DNA from: a virus
Direction: 5' to 3' (one strand)
Virus record (IMG/VR): IMGVR_UViG_3300031669_000119
Span: 1-35,725 of that record
DNA length: 35,725 bases
The notes under the pieces were generated by a model. It did not search any database. It saw only the letters and a program-made list of their open reading frames with translations, and had not been told where the DNA came from. Of the stretch, positions 12,130 to 31,323 are shown piece by piece (the first letter of the stretch is position 1; every line of letters starts with the position of its first letter). Made by a program: the position numbers and the translations under genes.

Positions 12130-12762
12130 TCAGACGTAAGTTATGATGTCGTTTGGGTTGAGGGTGGTTGTTCCTGCTGGGTTACTTTGTTTTTTGTGCC
12201 CAGAAAACCTTCCGTAGAGCTCACGAAGCGCCGCTATGTTTTGGTCCAACGTACCGACTGGTGCAGGAACTAGCGGATTCCAGCTGTCCGCAACTGTGTG
12301 CGTTGCTGCACCCAGTGCAATGTGCGCTGTGTAGTTGCCCTGAAACGACGTTATAAATGCGGTGAGTAACGCTAGAGAGACTGGTTTAGCCAGCGTCTCC
12401 GGGTTTGCAAGATCTTGTGCGCCATGTACAGCCAAGCTCAGCAGGTGTGTGTTGTACACATTTCTCAGGTTGTCTGCTGTGTCGTAAGCAGATTGGAGAT
12501 CGAACGCCCCAAATGGTGCTGGAACATTGCCAAGGTCGTCTACTACGTGCACCGCTGTCATCGTAGTCACGAGTAGCTGTCCGCGTTGCACGTAGCTGGC
12601 AAGGTCCGCTTTAGCACCGTTACCCCACTTTTTGAGCTCCTCTTGGGTCATCTGCATGTGCAGCGACGGTTCCAGCCCTATGTATAATGGGCGTCCCTGC
12701 GTGCCTACGTAACTCGAAGAAATACCGATTTTATACGGCGAGATGTTCTGGACTTTGATCAT
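12130..12762 (-). CDS. Probable virion-associated protein, paralogue A
   Basis: A 210-residue protein clearly homologous over its whole length to the adjacent gene at 12778-13410. Shared blocks include GISSSY, QGRPLYIGL, LVTTMTAVHVVDDLGN in one and KVTELTSVHLVDDLGN in the other, AYDTADN/AYDTADT, LSLAVHG and HIALGAATH. The N-terminal part looks strand-rich and the C-terminal part helical. An ATG with CGGAG upstream starts it. The gene family is not recognised; the position in the block with other probable structural genes suggests a virion component, perhaps two subunits of one structure. Confidence 0.75.
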   Translation of the reverse strand: MIKVQNISPYKIGISSSYVGTQGRPLYIGLEPSLHMQMTQEELKKWGNGAKADLASYVQRGQLLVTTMTAVHVVDDLGNVPAPFGAFDLQSAYDTADNLRNVYNTHLLSLAVHGAQDLANPETLAKPVSLALLTAFITSFQGNYTAHIALGAATHTVADSWNPLVPAPVGTLDQNIAALRELYGRFSGHKKQSNPAGTTTLNPNDIITYV

Positions 12763-12777
12763 AGTACACTCCGACTG

Positions 12778-13410
12778 CTAGTAGGCGATGATTTGGTTTG
12801 GGTTCAGTACGGTGCTTCCAAGCGGGTCACTTTGTATTTGGTGTGAGCGGTATCTCGCGTACAACTCCCGGAGTGCTAGAATGTTCTGCGCTAGCGTTCC
12901 AGTTACCGCCACTACGGGATTCCAGGCGTCCGCTACATCATGCGTAGCAACCCCCAACGCAATATGTGCGTTGAAGTTTCCTTGTAGAGAGGCAATGAAC
13001 GCAGTAAGCAGCAGAAGGGTTGTGGGCTTTGCCAGGCTCTCAATGTTCGCTAGATCTGGTACCCCATGCACCGCCAAGCTCACTATGTGTGCATTGTAGG
13101 CGATTCTGATGGTGTCTGCTGTATCGTACGCTTCTTGTAAGCTAACAGCAGTAACTGGTTCTAGAGGGTTCCCAAGGTCGTCCACTAGGTGCACCGACGT
13201 GAGCTCAGTTACTTTCAGGACGCCGTGTTGTACGTATCCAGCTAGGTCGGCCTTCGACCCATCCCCCCAATTCCTGAGCTCTTCTTGCGTTATCTGCTTG
13301 ATTTGAGTAGGACCCAGTCCTATGTATAGAGGACGCCCCTGAGCTCCTAGGTAGCTCGAAGAGAGCCCAACCCTGTACTGAGATACGTTGTGTATTTCGA
13401 CCATACTCAT
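12778..13410 (-). CDS. Probable virion-associated protein, paralogue B
   Basis: Also 210 residues, with about half of positions identical to paralogue A by eye and almost no length difference, so the pair arose by tandem gene duplication. The two differ most in the linker around residues 80-90 and in the last 40 residues. TAGGAG lies before the ATG at 13410; a second ATG two codons later is possible. The 15-base gap to paralogue A suggests they are made together. No enzyme motif is visible. Confidence 0.75.
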   Translation of the reverse strand: MSMVEIHNVSQYRVGLSSSYLGAQGRPLYIGLGPTQIKQITQEELRNWGDGSKADLAGYVQHGVLKVTELTSVHLVDDLGNPLEPVTAVSLQEAYDTADTIRIAYNAHIVSLAVHGVPDLANIESLAKPTTLLLLTAFIASLQGNFNAHIALGVATHDVADAWNPVVAVTGTLAQNILALRELYARYRSHQIQSDPLGSTVLNPNQIIAY

Positions 13411-22488: not shown

Positions 22489-23694
22489 ATGGCCAGCAAA
22501 AAGTCACCATATCCACGGGGACGTCGTCCCATTTCCAATGCCCCTGGTGGCGGAACTTACGCAGATAAGTGGCACCAGAAGCTTGACTACCTCGAGAAGC
22601 CGAAGAGGGGCAAACCGAAGGAGATCCGCTTGGTCGGTGGTATTTTTACCATCTTCCAGCATTATGTGCGGTTCAAGCGCAAAGACGGAAGCAAGAGCGG
22701 TTTCTATGAGGTGTGCCCGGATTTTGACTGGGACACCGGACAATTTAGGAAGGGGCCTGATGCGTCGTGCCCCCTGTGCGCCGATTTCCAAGACGACAGC
22801 CTTCCTCAGGAGCTTCGTCTGCTTGGGTCCTTCCGTTACTACATCGAAGCTTTCGACATCACCGCAGCCAAAGAAGGTCGGAAGGACGTCTTCGGCGTCC
22901 TGTTCACCAACAAATATGGAAAGAACGACCTGGCGATGATCGGTGACATCATGGGCTGCGAATTGGATGACCCCCAAAAGGGCACCTCCGTTCTGTGGCA
23001 CTACGACGAAAAAGCTCAAGACCCGAAGGACCGCGTACGCTTCTACCAGGGCAACAAAATGCCTGTGAAGTTTGACGAGGAAAAGGGTATCTGGATGATG
23101 AAGGGTGGGGGCAACATCTTTAAGGGTGAGCCCACGCCGTTCGATGAAATTGTCGAGGTCAAAGATCCCGACACGATCCGCGCAGACCTGAAGCGTCTTG
23201 GACTGTACGCTCGTCTTGAAGAAGTGATCGAGGTAGTTGCAAGCCGCGATGAGCCTGGCAACGACCGTTCAGGTAGCTGGGGTGACTCTGAGTCTGCGAA
23301 GCAATCCAGGAGGCCCACTGGTAGTGGACGACCAGCTAAAGCTAAGGCTGCCCCACCTCCTCCAGCGGAAGACGAAGCGTGGGGCGACGACGACTCGCCA
23401 TCGGAGCCATTAGAGTCTGCTCCTTCTGACGAAGGATGGGGCGAGACAAGCGTTGCTGCCAGCACCGATGACGCGTGGGGTGACGACTCTGGCAACGGTA
23501 AATCTGCCAGCACCGATGACGCGTGGGGAGATGAGACTGCTGCTAGCGCCGACAGCGGTGACAGCAGTGAAAGCGGTCCCGAATTCGATGACACCCTTTT
23601 CAGTGACGACGGCTGGGGCGACTCTCCCAGTGAAAAGACCTCTTCCACTGTTACTACTAAAGCAGTGGAAGAGGACGACCCCTCGGGGTGGTAG
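22489..23694 (+). CDS. Putative ssDNA-binding protein (gp32-like role) with acidic W-G repeat tail
   Basis: 401 residues with three parts: a basic N-terminus (KKSPYPRGRRP), a compact core of about 230 residues with strands FTIFQHYVRFKRK and YYIEAFDI and a partial cysteine site (EVCPDF...CPLC), and a long acidic tail. The tail holds about six acidic-W-G motifs (EAWGDD, EGWGET, DAWGDD, DAWGDE, DGWGDS and a final SGW). T4 gp32 and bacterial SSB also use an acidic C-terminus to recruit partners. The gene lies directly upstream of RecA/UvsX, as expected for an SSB, and has an AAGGAG ribosome site. The fold is not proven; position and architecture carry the call. Confidence 0.65.
   Translation: MASKKSPYPRGRRPISNAPGGGTYADKWHQKLDYLEKPKRGKPKEIRLVGGIFTIFQHYVRFKRKDGSKSGFYEVCPDFDWDTGQFRKGPDASCPLCADFQDDSLPQELRLLGSFRYYIEAFDITAAKEGRKDVFGVLFTNKYGKNDLAMIGDIMGCELDDPQKGTSVLWHYDEKAQDPKDRVRFYQGNKMPVKFDEEKGIWMMKGGGNIFKGEPTPFDEIVEVKDPDTIRADLKRLGLYARLEEVIEVVASRDEPGNDRSGSWGDSESAKQSRRPTGSGRPAKAKAAPPPPAEDEAWGDDDSPSEPLESAPSDEGWGETSVAASTDDAWGDDSGNGKSASTDDAWGDETAASADSGDSSESGPEFDDTLFSDDGWGDSPSEKTSSTVTTKAVEEDDPSGW
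23457..23552 (+). repeat. 48-nt in-frame tandem repeat in the ssDNA-binding protein tail
   Basis: The 24 bases at 23457-23480 recur exactly at 23505-23528, a period of 48 bases or 16 residues, each unit beginning ASTDDAWGD. The second half of the units has diverged. The repeat is in frame, so copy number can change without destroying the protein. Confidence 0.8.
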
Positions 23695-23710: not shown

Positions 23711-24058
23711 GTGTTGCTTGGTAGAAGCATTCGAGACTTTGCCGGGAAAGTTTTCCCAATTTCTTGGGATGCTGCTTTGGCACTGCGAGATCTCGACGTC
23801 GAATTCTTTTTGTTGATTAGCAATGAAAGTACATTGTGTAGTCAACTTGAGGAGTCTCTACTTGGCTTCATCCGTCACCGACGTTTACTGCTCTACATTG
23901 CTAGGGTGTCCCTTGTAGACGACCCTACAGCAGCCACACAGCTGGGTACTGCGTACGTTCCTCAAGTACGGTTTTACCGTGGTGGCCGCGAAGTTGGTCG
24001 TCATCGAGGGATGGCTACTTACGAAACTCTGCGCAAGCTCGTCGGCTTGCCTTTGTAG
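23711..24058 (+). CDS. Thioredoxin-fold protein lacking the CxxC active site
   Basis: About 115 residues from a GTG (TTG at 23714 is an alternative; ribosome site weak). The C-terminal half has the thioredoxin pattern: a TAATQLGTAYVPQVRFYRGG strand pair with the cis-proline motif VP at 83-84, then GREVGRHRG and a last helix TYETLRKLVGL. The usual CxxC after the first strand is absent; the only cysteine is C43. A redox role is therefore unlikely and a scaffolding or binding role is more probable, like thioredoxin in the T7 replisome. It lies between the ssDNA-binding and RecA/UvsX genes, with 7 bases to the latter. Confidence 0.6.
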   Translation: MLLGRSIRDFAGKVFPISWDAALALRDLDVEFFLLISNESTLCSQLEESLLGFIRHRRLLLYIARVSLVDDPTAATQLGTAYVPQVRFYRGGREVGRHRGMATYETLRKLVGLPL

Positions 24059-24065
24059 AGGTACC

Positions 24066-25355
24066 ATGTCCAAAAAGAAAGACAAGCTAAAGATAGAGAT
24101 AGTGCATCCTGCGGAAGCAGCTTCTGCCGCTTTTGACGAGGTGGAGGAGCTCGACTGCATCAACTTACGGCAAGGACAGCGCGTAAAAGATGTGCTCTCT
24201 ACCGGAAGCCTTTCCTTGGACTTGATTACTGGTGGCGGCTTCAAGCCAGGCTTGATGGGGACCACCTTCGGTCCGGAGGGGAGTGGTAAATCTACTCTGC
24301 TCACTTCCATCCTGGCTAGCTCTCAGTTGATAAATATTCCAGCTTGCCTGTACGACCCTGAAGCGGGGTCAGATCCCGTCTACATGCGTACGATGGGCGT
24401 CGACCTAAACTACAAAGTCAAGTTCAAAGATGGCAAAAAAACCATCGAGCGTCCAGGATTCTTCTACACGCAACCAGATACCGGAGAAGCGGTCTACCGT
24501 CATATCCTTCGTGTGCTTAGCAAGATGCCTATCGTGGACGACGGTCCACCTCGGATGCTTTTCTTGGTGGATAGCTTCGCAGGGATGGGTAGTGAAGAGG
24601 TAGATGAGGTCGGTGACGGTGGCCGGATTGCTGACGAAGCCCGGATGCACAGCTACTTCCTCAAACGCGTAGTTCCGCGCCTGCGAAGACGTGGTGCATT
24701 GCTCATCGGCACTAACCAGATGCGTACCAACATTGGGGGCTATGGAGCTCCCCAACACGAATCTGGTGGCAAAGCACTTCGATTCTGGCCCGGGTACAAA
24801 GTGCGCTCCTCTGTGAAGCGTGTAGAGCCCGACAAGATCGGTGTTCAGACGGTACCTGTCATCTGGCGAACGACCAAGAACAAAGCGTTCCCACCGTTTC
24901 GCAGCACAGATATGCGTCTCATGCTTGGGCGCGGGTTGGACAAGTCCTACGACGCTTTCTACTTCCTGAAACACCTGGGTCTCCTCGAGATTCGTGCGGG
25001 TAAGCAGAAAATCCATTTGGAGGGGTACGATAACAAGATACTCAGTTGGGGTGACTTCCGTCGCACAGTGGAGCATCCAGACTTTCGTGCTATGTGCTTT
25101 GCTATGTTGCGGGAGAACGAAACGTACCGCACCTACTTCGAGAAAAGTAACGAGTCTACCTACTTCTACGATGCCGATTACGACGTTCCAGACGAAGTAG
25201 ACGACAACGACGAAGAAGACCTCAAACAGCAGGTAGCAGATGAAGCTGCGGAGTACGAAGAAACCCGCGTTAACCGACGCAAGGTTGGCAAAAAACCTGT
25301 CAACAAGAGTAAGCAGGAAGATCACGCTGACCTTAGCTTCGACGAATCGTTTTAA
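24066..25355 (+). CDS. RecA/UvsX-family recombinase
   Basis: 429 residues from the ATG at 24066, with AGAGG upstream; the frame extends further 5' but only into the neighbouring gene. Walker A is GPEGSGKST (69-77), Walker B is MLFLVDSFAG, and the L2-type loop region follows (GTNQMRTNIGGYG, then ESGGKALRFWPG). The family polymerises on ssDNA and exchanges strands, driving recombination-dependent replication with the SSB-like protein upstream and Mre11/Rad50 downstream. The C-terminus is highly acidic (DEVDDNDEEDLKQQ), then basic, then ends DLSFDESF. The stop overlaps the methyltransferase start as TAATG, so the two are translationally coupled. Confidence 0.92.
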   Translation: MSKKKDKLKIEIVHPAEAASAAFDEVEELDCINLRQGQRVKDVLSTGSLSLDLITGGGFKPGLMGTTFGPEGSGKSTLLTSILASSQLINIPACLYDPEAGSDPVYMRTMGVDLNYKVKFKDGKKTIERPGFFYTQPDTGEAVYRHILRVLSKMPIVDDGPPRMLFLVDSFAGMGSEEVDEVGDGGRIADEARMHSYFLKRVVPRLRRRGALLIGTNQMRTNIGGYGAPQHESGGKALRFWPGYKVRSSVKRVEPDKIGVQTVPVIWRTTKNKAFPPFRSTDMRLMLGRGLDKSYDAFYFLKHLGLLEIRAGKQKIHLEGYDNKILSWGDFRRTVEHPDFRAMCFAMLRENETYRTYFEKSNESTYFYDADYDVPDEVDDNDEEDLKQQVADEAAEYEETRVNRRKVGKKPVNKSKQEDHADLSFDESF

Positions 25356-26398
25356 TGGCTAGAGGATTATCATCTATTACGGACGTATTTAGCTCGGTTT
25401 TTCTGCTAGTACGACGCCATGCTGATGGTACCTACGGGGTACTACTCATCACAGCTGCGCCAAGTTTGCGGAACCGTGCTCTACCGTTCGACGCGTTAGC
25501 GCCAGGGCTCTACAAGTTTCGGTGGGAGCGTGATGATCTCAAAGAAGTAGCGCTTCTGCTGCGCGGTTTAGGCTGCTATGTCTTCCTCTACGAATATGAG
25601 TCACTTCAGGATTGGAGTGCTCCTATAGCGGGACTGCCTTCATACGCAGGACGTCCCGAGGACAGCCCTCTACGTGAAGTCGCGCAGGCGCTCCCAGATT
25701 GTCAAGTGTACGTGGAGGTGTTTGGTGGACGGGCGCCTCTTCTGATGGCTCGAGAACCCGCTCCAGTAGAGGTATTCAACGACTACGCTCGGGCTGCTAT
25801 TACCCTTTTCCATACGTTGCGCGATCCATCCTCTTTCAGTTGGTTTTACCTGATCAGCCAACTCGTCCCCCCGACCAACTCCTTCCTGACTTCCCACCTG
25901 TTTGCAGTGTGGGAAGAGCAGAATGACCGGGATGCTGTGTTAGCTGCGTATGCGTGGTACTGCTACATGCGTGACGCGTTCCCTGCGGTGGAGCTCGCTC
26001 CTGCACAGGAGACACTGCCCGATACCACCTCTGATAAAGTAATGGCTGCGCTGCGTAGCGTAGACCCGGTTCTGCCGCAGCTGCATAGCCGCCTGTACCG
26101 TGTGCAGATAGAGCATAATACGATTGAAAAAGTGCTGCAGATCAATGACGCCCCGCACACCCTTTTCTGGGTGGACCCTCCTTTCGAGGGCATAGGAGCG
26201 CTCGATCTCGACGGCACACACATACTACTCAGTTACTTGAACACCTTGAATGGTACCGTCGCTTTGTATCAAGATGGTACCGTTTTAAACCCTCACATTC
26301 GCTCGCTGATGCGTGGTGACGCTCCATGGGCAAAATGGAAAGCGCTACGTTTCAGCCACTCAACAGTGTACCTGAAACAGTGTACAGAAGAAGCCTGA
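25355..26398 (+). CDS. DNA N6-adenine methyltransferase (D12/Dam class)
   Basis: 347 residues. The SAM-binding motif I is YVEVFGGRAPL (119-129), a variant of the FxGxG loop, followed by VEVFND (138-143). The catalytic DPPF is at 274-277, where the family has DPPY. The first 95 residues are an additional beta-rich domain not usual for Dam, rich in strands such as FLLVRR and YGVLLITAAP. It would methylate adenine in phage DNA, perhaps to evade restriction or to mark DNA for repair. It is coupled to the recombinase gene by a TAATG overlap. Confidence 0.8.
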   Translation: MARGLSSITDVFSSVFLLVRRHADGTYGVLLITAAPSLRNRALPFDALAPGLYKFRWERDDLKEVALLLRGLGCYVFLYEYESLQDWSAPIAGLPSYAGRPEDSPLREVAQALPDCQVYVEVFGGRAPLLMAREPAPVEVFNDYARAAITLFHTLRDPSSFSWFYLISQLVPPTNSFLTSHLFAVWEEQNDRDAVLAAYAWYCYMRDAFPAVELAPAQETLPDTTSDKVMAALRSVDPVLPQLHSRLYRVQIEHNTIEKVLQINDAPHTLFWVDPPFEGIGALDLDGTHILLSYLNTLNGTVALYQDGTVLNPHIRSLMRGDAPWAKWKALRFSHSTVYLKQCTEEA

Positions 26399-26413
26399 AC
26401 AAAGGAGAGAGTC

Positions 26414-26662
26414 ATGGCAGAAAAGAAAAGAAAAGTTCTAGATGAGATGCAGATGAGGAAAGCCACAGGAAATTTCTTCGAGGAGCACGGGAAGAAGGTC
26501 ATCACCGCATCCAAGGTGAAGGAGTACTTCAGTTCCATCGGTCTCCGTGTCGACGGTACCCTCGCGGATTCCCTCGCGAAAAAGTTCACCCAGATGATGC
26601 TCGATTCCGCCTTGCGCTGTGTGGGTAACAAGAGGACGACCGTCCGTCCAGTAGACCTGTAA
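26414..26662 (+). CDS. Histone-fold protein (bacterial-histone-like)
   Basis: 82 residues with AAGGAGAGAG before the ATG. After a basic N-terminus (AEKKRKV) the segment at about 37-82 has the histone-fold plan: helix 1 ASKVKEYFSSIG, loop with LRVDG, long helix 2 ADSLAKKFTQMMLDSALRC, and loop 2 plus helix-3 start NKRTTVRPVDL. The RVDG turn, the alanine-rich long helix and the final (R)(T/K)TV-x-P-x-D-L are hallmarks of short bacterial and archaeal histones. It should bind and bend or coat DNA. It sits between the methyltransferase and Mre11 genes. A different three-helix protein remains possible until structure is modelled. Confidence 0.7.
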   Translation: MAEKKRKVLDEMQMRKATGNFFEEHGKKVITASKVKEYFSSIGLRVDGTLADSLAKKFTQMMLDSALRCVGNKRTTVRPVDL

Positions 26663-26675
26663 GCACCACGGTAGT

Positions 26676-27755
26676 ATGCCAACGTTTTTACACACCTCTG
26701 ATTTGCACCTCAACGCTCTGCGTCGGTTCAGCCAGTTTTATCTGGGCCGTGCAAAGGCGTGCCTTCGCCATATCCAGAATATTGCGGAGGACCGTGAGGT
26801 CGATTTCATAGTAGTAGCGGGGGATATCTACGACCGACGTGATATTACACACGCTGAGCGCCTGCTCCTGTCGGAGTGGCTCGCTGAGTGCCGTGTACCA
26901 GTTGTGATGATCAGCGGTAATCACGACAAGCGTTCTGTGGAAGTTGGCGACACCTGTTTGAGTTACCTCTCCGCCTTCGCACAGCGCTTAGGGAATCACC
27001 TCGTTCACGATGGTGAGCCCAGTGTGTACGAACGCTTCGGTTGCTACCTGGTGCTAATGCCTTACCAGGGATGGATGGACCAGGAACTTTTCTTGATTGT
27101 GCAGGCATTGCTGGAGGACTACTGCACCAACCCGGATTTACCGGTAGTAGTTGTTCTTCATGAAGCAGTGCAGGGCTGTAAAACGGACGTTGGTTTGAGC
27201 ATCACCAAGGCGAACCAAATCCGTATCGACAACAACCTTCCTTCTGTGACTTACTGGGCGATGGGCGACATGCACATCTGCCAGTCGTTACTGGATTGCG
27301 CGTGGTACTCTGGGTCGCCGCACCAAACCCGTTTTGACGAGGTCGCGGAAAAGGGCGTGCTCATTGTTGATACCAACCGCCCAGCAGATCCCGAATTTGT
27401 TCCTGTTCCGTCCATCCCTCTTCGTATCGTTACTGAGGAACTCGAGGATTGGCCTCCTCCTGAGGAAGCGCTGATCCAGTTTCGTCCAGAGGGTCCTTTT
27501 CCCGAAAACGCTCTGCCACTGAACGTTGAATTTCATCCTAGTGTGGTGTCGCTTGAGCGTCGCCAGGATCGCGACCAACAAATGGTCACGGTGGGAATTT
27601 TTGATGATCTTGAAACAGCGTTGGAGAGAGCCCACCTTCCAGAAGATTTGTACCCGTTGGCATGGCGGATTGCCATAAAGTTGGCAAAAACAGCAGGCGT
27701 GACTGTAGAACTTCCAGACAGATACCAGGTACAGGACAATGATGAACAAGGATAA
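26676..27755 (+). CDS. Mre11/SbcD-type nuclease (T4 gp47-like)
   Basis: 359 residues. The metallophosphatase motifs are in order: DLHL (9-12), VAGDIYDRRD, ISGNHDKR, VVLHEAV and MGDMHIC. This subunit forms a complex with the Rad50-like ATPase encoded at 28885 and processes broken DNA ends to 3' tails for the RecA/UvsX protein. The two genes are separated here by the clamp-loader gene, whereas many phages keep them adjacent. The last 17 bases overlap the start of the clamp loader. The ribosome site is weak (ACGGTAG). Confidence 0.9.
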   Translation: MPTFLHTSDLHLNALRRFSQFYLGRAKACLRHIQNIAEDREVDFIVVAGDIYDRRDITHAERLLLSEWLAECRVPVVMISGNHDKRSVEVGDTCLSYLSAFAQRLGNHLVHDGEPSVYERFGCYLVLMPYQGWMDQELFLIVQALLEDYCTNPDLPVVVVLHEAVQGCKTDVGLSITKANQIRIDNNLPSVTYWAMGDMHICQSLLDCAWYSGSPHQTRFDEVAEKGVLIVDTNRPADPEFVPVPSIPLRIVTEELEDWPPPEEALIQFRPEGPFPENALPLNVEFHPSVVSLERRQDRDQQMVTVGIFDDLETALERAHLPEDLYPLAWRIAIKLAKTAGVTVELPDRYQVQDNDEQG

Positions 27756-28881
27756 CTTGCATCTAGCAGCGAAGTGGCGTCCTAAAGCATTCGCTGAGAT
27801 GGTGGGGCAAGTAGAGGTAGTAGACAGTCTGCGTGGCATGATCATGAACAAGAGAATCGACCCTGTGTTGATTTTTCATGGTCCGTACAGTGCAGGTAAA
27901 ACAACGCTGGCGCGTCTCGTAGCCTACTACATCAACTGTCAGAAACCCAGCGGCATTGAACCTTGCGGGGAGTGCTCTAGCTGCAAGCAGATGAAACCCG
28001 TATTGTTGGGTAGGTCTGAACATCCCGACGTGACAGAGTTGAACGTAGCACTGCATGGTGGCATTGATGAGATTCGCCGCTTAGCGTCCATCGCTCCTCA
28101 AGCACCTCGGTACAACTTTCGGGTGTTCATCCTGGATGAAGCACATCAGATTACAGGTGCTGCTTTCCAGGCGATGCTCAAGATGCTGGAGGATCCACCT
28201 CGGCGCACACGCTACATTCTGTGCACCACCAACTTCGAGAAGCTACCCTCCACCATTCGTAGCCGTGGAGAGATTTTTTCGCTCGAGCCGCTGCCTACAG
28301 AAGCCGTGGCGAAGCGTGTGTATCAGATCGCCGTCAAGGAAGGCTTTCAACCTCCCAATGATATGCTGAAGAAGCTGTGCTTGCAAATTGCTACCGCTAG
28401 CGATGGGCATCTTCGTGATGCCCTCGGGCTGCTCAGCAAGGTTATCAATCACGCTGAAGCTGCGAAAGGCGAGACATCCAACTGGCAGGAGCTACTCACC
28501 AAGGTGGTAGCGCAGTCGACCGAACTGCAGACTTCCGAGGTCATCAGACGCTACGTGGGTGCTGTGGTAGCAGGCAACCTGCCGATGGCGCTGCAGGCAC
28601 TCCAACACGTAACCAATCCAGGCTACTTTACACAGTGCGTGCTCGAGACGTTCCAGCAGCTGTTCTACTCGTGGATTGACAAAGATGCCTTGTGCGACCC
28701 AGGAAAAATGTGGCTGCTCAAGGGTGTCACTGCGCGTAAGCCACAGTCGACGGAGAGTTTACCACTCATTCTTGACGACTACTGCACCGTGTTAGAGCGC
28801 ACCAAGTTGTACTCTACCGATTCTATTGCACTGCTTGAAGCAGCTACTTTCCGTACAATGAAGCTCATCAAAAGCTGGTAG
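27739..28881 (+). CDS. DnaX-like clamp loader ATPase (gamma-type)
   Basis: 380 residues. The P-loop is HGPYSAGKTTLARL, preceded by KWRPKAFAEMVGQ, the opening of DnaX/RFC small subunits. A four-cysteine zinc module follows (C-x8-C-x2-C-x2-C around NCQKPSG...PCGECSSCK). The Walker B is ILDEAHQIT and the sensor segment is TTNFEKLPSTIRSR. The enzyme loads the beta-type clamp whose gene begins at 843, which also argues that the left-edge gene is a clamp. The tau extension is absent; only one loader gene is visible, so further subunits may be outside the window or the protein may act as a homo-oligomer. Confidence 0.9.
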   Translation: MMNKDNLHLAAKWRPKAFAEMVGQVEVVDSLRGMIMNKRIDPVLIFHGPYSAGKTTLARLVAYYINCQKPSGIEPCGECSSCKQMKPVLLGRSEHPDVTELNVALHGGIDEIRRLASIAPQAPRYNFRVFILDEAHQITGAAFQAMLKMLEDPPRRTRYILCTTNFEKLPSTIRSRGEIFSLEPLPTEAVAKRVYQIAVKEGFQPPNDMLKKLCLQIATASDGHLRDALGLLSKVINHAEAAKGETSNWQELLTKVVAQSTELQTSEVIRRYVGAVVAGNLPMALQALQHVTNPGYFTQCVLETFQQLFYSWIDKDALCDPGKMWLLKGVTARKPQSTESLPLILDDYCTVLERTKLYSTDSIALLEAATFRTMKLIKSW

Positions 28882-28884
28882 CCT

Positions 28885-31323
28885 ATGCCCTTCATTGAAT
28901 ACGAGTCGCTGGAGTTCGAGAACGCCTACATCTACCGGAAGTGCAGCTTCCCGTTGGCGAATCAGGGACTCGTGTTGGTGCGTGGGTTGAACATGGATGA
29001 TGGTGGTTTTCTGGGTGCGGGGAAGTCTTCCATCTTCGAGGTGTTTGCACAGTTGCAGGTAGGTAAAGGGGGCAAGCGGGACCAGCGGCGCGGTGATCAT
29101 AAATCCGATATCGTCAACTTGTTTAGCGGGGCCGACATGTCGGCCACCCTGAAGTTGCGTGTTGGCGGGCACCCTTACGAGATACGGCAGTACCGCCAGC
29201 ACCACCGGTTCAACAATAAAGTGATGGTGATCGATAGAGAGACGGGCCAGAACGTCCTCCCTATAGACGCTTCACGTGCACCTCACAAGTGGATCCGTGA
29301 AGGGCTGCTATCACTTGACGAAACCACCTTCTTCAACCTTATCTACTTGGTGCAAGAGCTCAACAATGTCATGATTCATGGCAAAGAGTTCGAGCGACGT
29401 AAGCGGTTGACAGTGATGTTCGACCTGGACATTTACGACGAGTTGTACGTGTTGGCCAAGCGGATGCTCTCTATGCACGAGACTTCGATGTCCGACTTCG
29501 CGCAGGTGAGCAACGAGCTTCGAGAGGTTAAACAGAAAATCTTTTCGATGCCAGATTTGGTAGACCTCGAGGCTGACCACGAAGCAGCAGAAATAATGTT
29601 GGAGCATCTCAAGGACGAAAACTCAGAGGACACCGATGAGTACACCGAGGTGTCTTCTCTACACTCGAAGCTGCAGCAGCGGACGTCTGGGCGTAGACAA
29701 ACAATGTCTCGGTTCAAGGGCAGCGACCTGGTCAAGACGTTCGACCACCCAAAGGACATCACCCAGAAAGACGTTGACCGTTGGAAGCGTAAGTACGACA
29801 ATCTTAATGCGGAGTATGCTTCGGCGCAGTCTGACCTGGAGAAGGTAGAAAAGCGTGAAGCTCTCCGGGCGCAGTTACAGAAACTCAGCGACCGAGATGC
29901 AGAAGAGATACAAGAAGACCTGACAGAAACAAAGACGAAGCTTACCTACCTCAACCAGGTAGAGCTTCCACAGGCAGAAGAGCGCCAGGGATTGATGATC
30001 AAACTTCAGCGGCTTGCGGAGCCCACGGCTCCTTTGGATGAGCTTGTTGAGGAACAGGACGCAGCTAAGCTGCGCGAAGCAGCCCTAGAGCGCGACGTTA
30101 AAAATTTGGACACCGAGCTTCGCCATGCTGCGTGTCCACATTGCAAACGTCCCTACGATCTGTCCGCAGAGGAAATTAACGCCAAGCGTACCGAGCTTGC
30201 CCAGCTTCGTGACGAGTTGCAGAAGACCACTTCGAGGCTGCACGTTTTGAAAAAAGAGATAAACGACGGTCGAAATGCAGAGGGAATTCGTTCCCGCTTG
30301 ACCATGTTCCAGACCAAGCGTTCTCCAGAAGAGGTGACAGAGGACATCCGTCTACTTAGTGGTAAGGAGCGCAGGCTTTCCGCTGAGCTTGAGACTTCAC
30401 GACGCCGCATAGAAATCGAAGCCGAGCTTGCGGCTATGCCTTCCGACAGCAAGGATGACTTGGTGGAGCGCTGCGAAAAAGCGCGCCGCGTTGTAGACAA
30501 GTACCGGGACCGCTACGAGACGGGCAAATTCATCGTAGAAAAGCTGGAGGAGCTCAAGCAGCTTCCTCGTGGTGACATGCAGGAAGTGGAAACTAAGTTG
30601 CGGGAGCTCCGTAGCCGGTTGAAGCGAGCAGCCACTAAGATAGCGGAGGCAAGTAGTGATGAGGCTCATCTGCGTGAGCGTGTGAACGAGCTTCGGCAGC
30701 TGCTTCGTCATGAGAAGGTGCTCAAGCGTACCCTACGCAAGCAGGAGGCCCTCATTGCTGAGATTCGTTGTCTAGAGGCTTTGCACAAGTCGTTTGGCAG
30801 CAAGGGTATGAAACAGGATCGTTTCGATGCCATTTTGTCCGACGCAGCGGAGCGCACAGTTCCTGCGTACTCCGACATTTTGTGGCCAAACAGAAATGTA
30901 TCGCTGCACTTGACAGACCAGGAGGGTTCCCTACAGTTTGGGCTTGGTCGGCGTCTCGAAGAAGTGTCTACCAACAGCAGCTTGCTTTCTGGTGGTGAAC
31001 GACACAAGGCTGGACTCGCTTTTTTGTTCGGCCTCCGCGACTTGAAGGAGCTCTACACAGGTAGTAGCTCCAACGTGCTCATCGTTGACGAGCCGTTTGG
31101 AAACCTGGACCCGTTGGGTACAGAGGGTCTTATCTCGATTTTTGCGCTGTTAAAGCAAAAGTTTGGATCGGTGTTCGTGATATCCCACCGTCCGGAGGTG
31201 CTATCACACCCGATTTGGGACCAAACATGGTGGGCGATTCGCGAGAATAATAACGCAACACTTTATCTGGAAGACCCGCCTGCGAAATATCATCAAATGG
31301 CGTCCGAACTTGTAAAACAGTAG
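28885..31323 (+). CDS. Rad50/SbcC-type ATPase (T4 gp46-like)
   Basis: 812 residues. The N-terminal Walker A is GFLGAGKSS (41-49); two long coiled coils flank a CPHC zinc hook at C417/C420; the ABC signature LSGGERHKAG is near residue 700; Walker B is VLIVDEPFGNLDP near 730. It partners the Mre11 subunit encoded just upstream of the clamp loader. Start is the ATG 3 bases after the clamp-loader stop. Size and hook position fit the phage subgroup, which has shorter coiled coils than cellular Rad50. A TTGTAAAACA sequence lies in its last codons (31310-31319), before the next gene. Confidence 0.92.
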   Translation: MPFIEYESLEFENAYIYRKCSFPLANQGLVLVRGLNMDDGGFLGAGKSSIFEVFAQLQVGKGGKRDQRRGDHKSDIVNLFSGADMSATLKLRVGGHPYEIRQYRQHHRFNNKVMVIDRETGQNVLPIDASRAPHKWIREGLLSLDETTFFNLIYLVQELNNVMIHGKEFERRKRLTVMFDLDIYDELYVLAKRMLSMHETSMSDFAQVSNELREVKQKIFSMPDLVDLEADHEAAEIMLEHLKDENSEDTDEYTEVSSLHSKLQQRTSGRRQTMSRFKGSDLVKTFDHPKDITQKDVDRWKRKYDNLNAEYASAQSDLEKVEKREALRAQLQKLSDRDAEEIQEDLTETKTKLTYLNQVELPQAEERQGLMIKLQRLAEPTAPLDELVEEQDAAKLREAALERDVKNLDTELRHAACPHCKRPYDLSAEEINAKRTELAQLRDELQKTTSRLHVLKKEINDGRNAEGIRSRLTMFQTKRSPEEVTEDIRLLSGKERRLSAELETSRRRIEIEAELAAMPSDSKDDLVERCEKARRVVDKYRDRYETGKFIVEKLEELKQLPRGDMQEVETKLRELRSRLKRAATKIAEASSDEAHLRERVNELRQLLRHEKVLKRTLRKQEALIAEIRCLEALHKSFGSKGMKQDRFDAILSDAAERTVPAYSDILWPNRNVSLHLTDQEGSLQFGLGRRLEEVSTNSSLLSGGERHKAGLAFLFGLRDLKELYTGSSSNVLIVDEPFGNLDPLGTEGLISIFALLKQKFGSVFVISHRPEVLSHPIWDQTWWAIRENNNATLYLEDPPAKYHQMASELVKQ
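31310..31319 (+). promoter_or_regulatory. Motif copy TTGTAAAACA at the end of the Rad50-like gene
   Basis: Matches 9 of 10 bases of the recurrent motif, 13 bases before the next start. It is inside coding sequence and may be chance, but its place at a gene boundary resembles the other copies. Confidence 0.25.

Follow-up and report, generated by a model that had tools for sequence, protein, structure and literature searches.

What is the small protein encoded directly upstream of the Mre11 nuclease gene in this viral DNA, and what would a phage use it for? The gene lies in IMG/VR virus record IMGVR_UViG_3300031669_000119, positions 1-35,725, which is the whole stretch analysed and is called the window here. 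An initial annotation had proposed that a tailed phage here encodes a histone-fold protein among its recombination genes, and sequence, profile, structure model and synteny bore this out.

Genomic setting of the histone gene

The gene string comprised, in order, a sigma factor, RecA/UvsX, a D12 methyltransferase-like protein, the histone, Mre11/SbcD, a clamp loader subunit and Rad50/SbcC, with an ATP-dependent ligase further on. The main features were:

23979-25355, + strand: RecA/UvsX recombinase (Pfam RecA E 3e-26; PHROG UvsX-like E 6e-50), with the true start possibly at 24069
25355-26398, + strand: D12-type DNA methyltransferase-like protein, catalytic motif DPPF in the window
26402-26407, + strand: Shine-Dalgarno AAGGAG, 6 nt 5' of the histone ATG, as read from the sequence
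26414-26662, + strand: histone gene, 82 aa, ATG at 26414 and stop at 26662; orthologs in the same slot of four other phages
26676-27755, + strand: Mre11/SbcD nuclease (Metallophos E 2e-14; PHROG SbcD-like E 1.5e-19), directly 3' of the histone in all five phages
27739-28881, + strand: clamp loader subunit (PHROG E 5e-62)
28885-31323, + strand: Rad50/SbcC (PHROG E 1e-54)

The gene had been placed between an adenine methyltransferase and Mre11. The Mre11 side of this description stood, and the adenine methyltransferase identity had weak support (PHROG E 3.5e-8; Pfam D12 E 0.26). The DPPY-type catalytic motif of this D12-like protein varied, from DPPF in the window (25355-26398) to DPPH and DVPT in orthologs (L008:6269-7309, L015:3870-4913), and its decay suggests a non-catalytic role in some phages. 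A simple scan of 25200-27000 found no sigma-70-like promoter. Together with the short gaps between genes, this is consistent with a single transcription unit.

Two proteins upstream of RecA had no family match. The one at 22489-23694 (401 aa) has a zinc-like region of CPLC type, and its acidic C-terminal tail closes with EDDPSGW; it is a candidate gp32-like single-strand binding protein. The other, at 23711-24058 (115 aa), appears thioredoxin-like by eye and is kept just upstream of RecA in related phages.

Identification as a histone

A phmmer search of the window protein against 177,635 PDB sequences gave a single significant match, 9qt0 (E 9.1e-8, residues 28-81), the next being at E 0.08. 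This entry is HLp, the tetrameric, face-to-face (FtF) histone of Leptospira perolatii (PDB 9QT0-9QT2), which was the best match in both sequence and structure, with ~43-45% identity over the core. Two divergent orthologs, each searched singly, also matched HLp (E 3e-6 and 6e-4). A profile built from the five phage orthologs only retrieved HLp at E 2.1e-13, followed by the archaeal FtF histone HTkC of Thermococcus kodakarensis (PDB 9F2C) at E 1.6e-5 and the Bdellovibrio histone HBb/Bd0055 (PDB 8CMP, 8FVX) at ~0.1 (0.09). The same profile scored HLp at 53.9 bits; among 20,000 shuffled versions of HLp, the highest score was 13.2 bits. HLp ends at F63, its true last residue, and no claim was drawn from the final alignment column. 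No histone model in Pfam, NCBIfam or PHROGs matched the window protein.

An AlphaFold check had been suggested with the first proposal. The AlphaFold2 core model, made from five sequences, had a mean pLDDT of 87 and a pTM of 0.60, and it gave an alpha3-histone layout, not a non-histone fold. Its helices cover core residues 7-16 (a 10-residue alpha1) and 23-46 (a 24-residue alpha2), followed by a one-turn alpha3 of 3 residues. In the window this corresponds to:

26489-26659, + strand: histone core, with alpha1 at residues 32-41, L1 with R45, alpha2 at 48-71, L2, and alpha3 at 79-81 (AlphaFold2 core model)

A Foldseek search of the core model against the PDB was led by HLp (probability 1.00), HBb and HTkC, none below E 0.001; the 50 matches listed were histone-fold entries or histone-containing complexes only. 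A full-length model from three sequences was too weak (pLDDT 64), and its Foldseek matches were meaningless. Two other candidates were set aside: RNA polymerase delta (HARE-HTH), at E 0.08-0.2 in the single-sequence search and absent from the phage-only profile searches, and the designed repeat protein 7ue2, which reached E 0.001 in a phage-only profile search by adding up weak repeats.

On these sequence and model data, the open reading frame at 26414-26662 was confirmed as real and its predicted product as a true histone. The histone plan first described for it was upheld by the HLp match, the profile scores versus shuffles and the core model; that plan had omitted an extra N-terminal helix at residues ~11-29.

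Assignment to the FtF class

Alpha3 histones are defined by a truncated alpha3, and the conserved FtF residues are R48, N52 and the RxTxxxxD motif (PMC11390915). HLp uses R49, N53 and R55 for the contacts between dimers, and R55 and D62 for the RD clamp (PMC12701072). The window protein carries the equivalents of HLp R49, N53, R55, T57 and D62 at exactly the same spacing:

26615-26656, + strand: FtF signature R68-N72-R74-T76-D81 (tetramer contacts, RD clamp and L2 threonine), unchanged across the five phage histones

Fourteen core positions were invariant in the five-phage set. Among these histones, R74, T76 and D81 preserve RxTxxxxD, and R68 and N72 occupy positions -6 and -2 relative to R74 in five of five. 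This conservation (R-6, N-2, R0, T+2, D+7), together with that of the L1 arginine, counts for the FtF assignment. The shortened alpha2 (24 residues) and the alpha3 of 3 residues in the core model are as expected for FtF histones, which have an alpha3 of 3-4 residues, and the phage-only profile was nearer to FtF histones than to the dimer class.

Most DNA contacts of HLp are also present, with A13, S14, K15, K17 and G29 corresponding to A32, S33, K34, K36 and G48. Two differences count against the assignment. The DNA-contacting K21 of HLp is replaced by S, G or A in the three close orthologs (S40 in the window), and the HLp tetramer contacts S52 and T61 are not retained in the phage proteins. 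The L1 arginine (R45) is invariant in the phages and present in HTkC, whereas HLp has M26 there. HTkC, the second-best profile match, is also of the tetramer type and has the L1 'RV' in common with the phage proteins; it differs by two extra L1 residues and has no N-terminal tail, its chain starting with the histone fold. Unlike HLp, the window protein has an extra N-terminal helix and is phage-encoded beside Mre11-Rad50.

Other histone classes fitted less well. HBb/Bd0055 has the alpha3 fold and the RD clamp in common with the phage protein, but it belongs to a dimer class without the R48/N52-type tetramer residues, both of which were found in all five phage histones. Nucleosomal HMf-type histones have an alpha3 of ~10 residues, in place of which the phage protein has a single turn at its C-terminus. 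The DUF1931 pseudodimer (PF09123) has two folds per chain; here there is a single fold and no Pfam match. The initial annotation had likened the protein to bacterial and archaeal histones, naming Bd0055 and HMfB. The histone likeness held, with the tetrameric HLp as the closest solved relative rather than the dimeric Bd0055 or the nucleosomal HMfB.

Published phage histones (Schwab et al. 2024) have a C-terminal helical tetramerisation domain and no RxTxxxxD (PMC11390915). These proteins (e.g. A0A2E7QIQ9) are likewise alpha3-family histones of tailed phages, but the proteins described here end at alpha3 and keep RxTxxxxD. Since both defining features differ, the phage protein falls outside that class. 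The Moraphage H1-like protein (PF07432, PMC12619734) is also DNA-associated, named a histone and found in jumbo phages, but it is Hc1/H1-like and has no histone fold.

N-terminal tails

In the window protein and its two close orthologs, a stretch of 28-37 residues with a predicted helix precedes the core:

26444-26500, + strand: extra N-terminal helix alpha-N, residues ~11-29, preceding the core (low-confidence AlphaFold2 model and alignment)

In the alignment of the three close orthologs, M14, A17, F21 and G26 were invariant; these proteins have a net charge of +7 to +14 and a pI of 9.9-10.5. Two more distant phages encode histones with longer basic tails: 55 residues with an AT-hook-like KKRGRPK in G105 (L060:2705-3034), and 56 residues, 25 of them K/R, with repeated lysine-rich KKKGAKK units in G106 (L066:284-616). 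Bacterial FtF histones typically have basic N-terminal tails that lack a common sequence.

Conservation in jumbo phages

Close orthologs occupied the same slot in G001 (349,793 bp, with a ~100-base terminal repeat containing one mismatch) and G104 (260,067 bp), and were 73% and 55% identical to the window protein. The 35.7 kb window was collinear with both contigs, and the histone was about as divergent as its neighbours. The more distant phages G105 (221,679 bp) and G106 (17.8 kb) were reached via RecA and Mre11. Their Mre11 proteins are 45% (G105) and 36% (G106) identical to that of the window, and the histone again lies directly upstream, with gaps of 48 and 18 nt. Across the five contigs (17.8-350 kb), the gap between histone and Mre11 ranged from 13 to 48 nt. 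Two short contigs carried identical histone copies.

Among the three close orthologs, dN (0.24-0.46) was well below a near-saturated dS (1.8-2.8), which indicates purifying selection. Portal genes in G001, G104 and G105, tail sheath genes in G001 and G104, and terminase and endolysin matches in G001 identify these as tailed phages; the terminase match came from a PHROG profile, while the Pfam model Terminase_6N matched neither G001 nor G104. Judging by sequence and gene order, the histone belongs to the conserved core of several jumbo-phage contigs rather than being a stray capture. Searches of 50,697 phage and 72,556 plasmid records brought up no relative. Two weak matches were attributed to chance: a Novosphingobium 'relative' (L004) from a pattern-based genome scan, with 32% identity over 44 residues of a 1429-aa frame (E 0.006), and a 57-aa frame at G104:8413 (E 0.011).

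The gene preceding the histone is methyltransferase-like in three contigs and macro-domain-like in two (L060:2172-2675, Pfam Macro E 2e-4; L066:2-280, of similar sequence). Elsewhere in the window, the adjacent and related genes at 12130-12762 and 12778-13410 have one common best match in G001 and in G104, a pattern that suggests a tandem duplication peculiar to this phage.

Proposed role and alternatives

We consider it probable, at roughly 0.66, that the protein is an FtF-type alpha3 histone, used by the phage as a nucleoid protein of its own on phage DNA undergoing replication and recombination. Two chains would form a handshake dimer, and two dimers would pair up into a tetramer via the alpha2 C-termini, L2 loops and alpha3 turns (R68, N72, R74). 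By analogy with HLp, a continuous basic belt on the tetramer would wrap or bend DNA, and the basic N-terminal tail or extra helix could add contacts to DNA or protein. The histone would be made together with RecA, Mre11-Rad50, the clamp loader and the ligase; this co-expression, its timing and the choice of phage rather than host DNA as target are our inferences. Wrapping of replicating phage DNA appears the likeliest role, by the same analogy. The initial annotation had suggested that the protein may coat or organise replicating phage DNA or protect DNA ends, and both stand as proposals. An HU/IHF-family match in the same contig as the G105 histone (G105:C1:134789-135007, E 2.8e-8) counts against this reading; G001 and G104 had no HU/IHF family match, which counts for it.

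The position beside Mre11 could also point to a partner of Mre11-Rad50 that is specific to repair, binding DNA near ends or forks and guiding or restraining the SbcCD-like nuclease, with no genome packaging. The histone and Mre11 genes are adjacent in five of five contigs, even though the preceding gene changes and the recombination string of G105 has additional genes inserted further along. Cellular FtF histones, however, are abundant general DNA organisers (PMC12701072). The contigs are moreover related, and their gene order may simply be inherited, so that a repair-specific function seems unlikely.

Phages often carry host-like regulators, and the histone might on this ground be a host-takeover protein, displacing or interfering with a histone-bearing host's nucleoid protein and altering transcription in that host. 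In the bacterium that encodes the closest solved relative, an FtF histone is probably the principal organiser of the DNA (PMC12701072). The phage gene has been inherited vertically in its lineage, at the pace of core genes, which makes such a takeover distinctly improbable.

A small, basic, tailed protein could instead be a virion core protein travelling with packaged DNA, as in the giant eukaryotic virus precedent of the Marseilleviridae viral histones (cited in PMC11390915). Its gene is placed in the replication/recombination block, far from the portal and sheath genes in G001, and we judge this very unlikely; the neighbouring genes argue for a role in phage DNA replication and recombination rather than virion assembly. 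A histone fold that has given up DNA binding and serves as a scaffold, as some in TFIID or kinetochores do (PMC10627809), is barely plausible for strongly positive proteins that in five of five cases keep the RD clamp, the L2 threonine, the L1 arginine and the serine/basic residues of alpha1.

A possible remodeller in a related phage

In G105, a 1063-aa frame (L076, G105:C1:94851-98039, + strand; match in L075) encodes an SNF2 ATPase domain (E 2.8e-18), apparently interrupted by an intein. The histone profile matched its extreme C-terminus (GFLNSLGLKPSKK...ACRATINDRKVIKTHDL) with E 4e-4 over 10,493 frames, and the isolated end scored 26.4 bits, versus 12.0 bits for the best of 50,000 shuffles. 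This stretch keeps R-6, N-2, R0 and D+7, with V in place of T+2. Searched alone against the PDB, it found no histone. We regard a remodeller-histone fusion as possible, but only as a lead. A wider reading would be a jumbo-phage lineage with its own chromatin, in which a tailed FtF histone with variable basic tails (an AT-hook in one relative) forms nucleosome-like tetramers on replicating DNA, and at least one member has an SNF2 ATPase bearing a degenerate histone-fold C-terminus, possibly a remodeller. We hold this to be a speculative and rather doubtful extension.

Implications

In the literature searched, the FtF histones described came from archaea and bacteria, and the histones of phages formed a separate class. 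FtF histones of phages were not mentioned there, although a viral entry may be listed in a supplementary table. Here, a histone of the DNA-wrapping type stands as a conserved core gene among the recombination and replication genes of several jumbo-phage contigs. It may be that some phages, like cells, use histones to organise their DNA, and the use of histone chromatin by a bacterial virus becomes testable. The locus would offer a compact system for how histones meet RecA, Mre11-Rad50 and the replisome, and it suggests that viruses helped to spread FtF histones, which occur patchily among bacteria.
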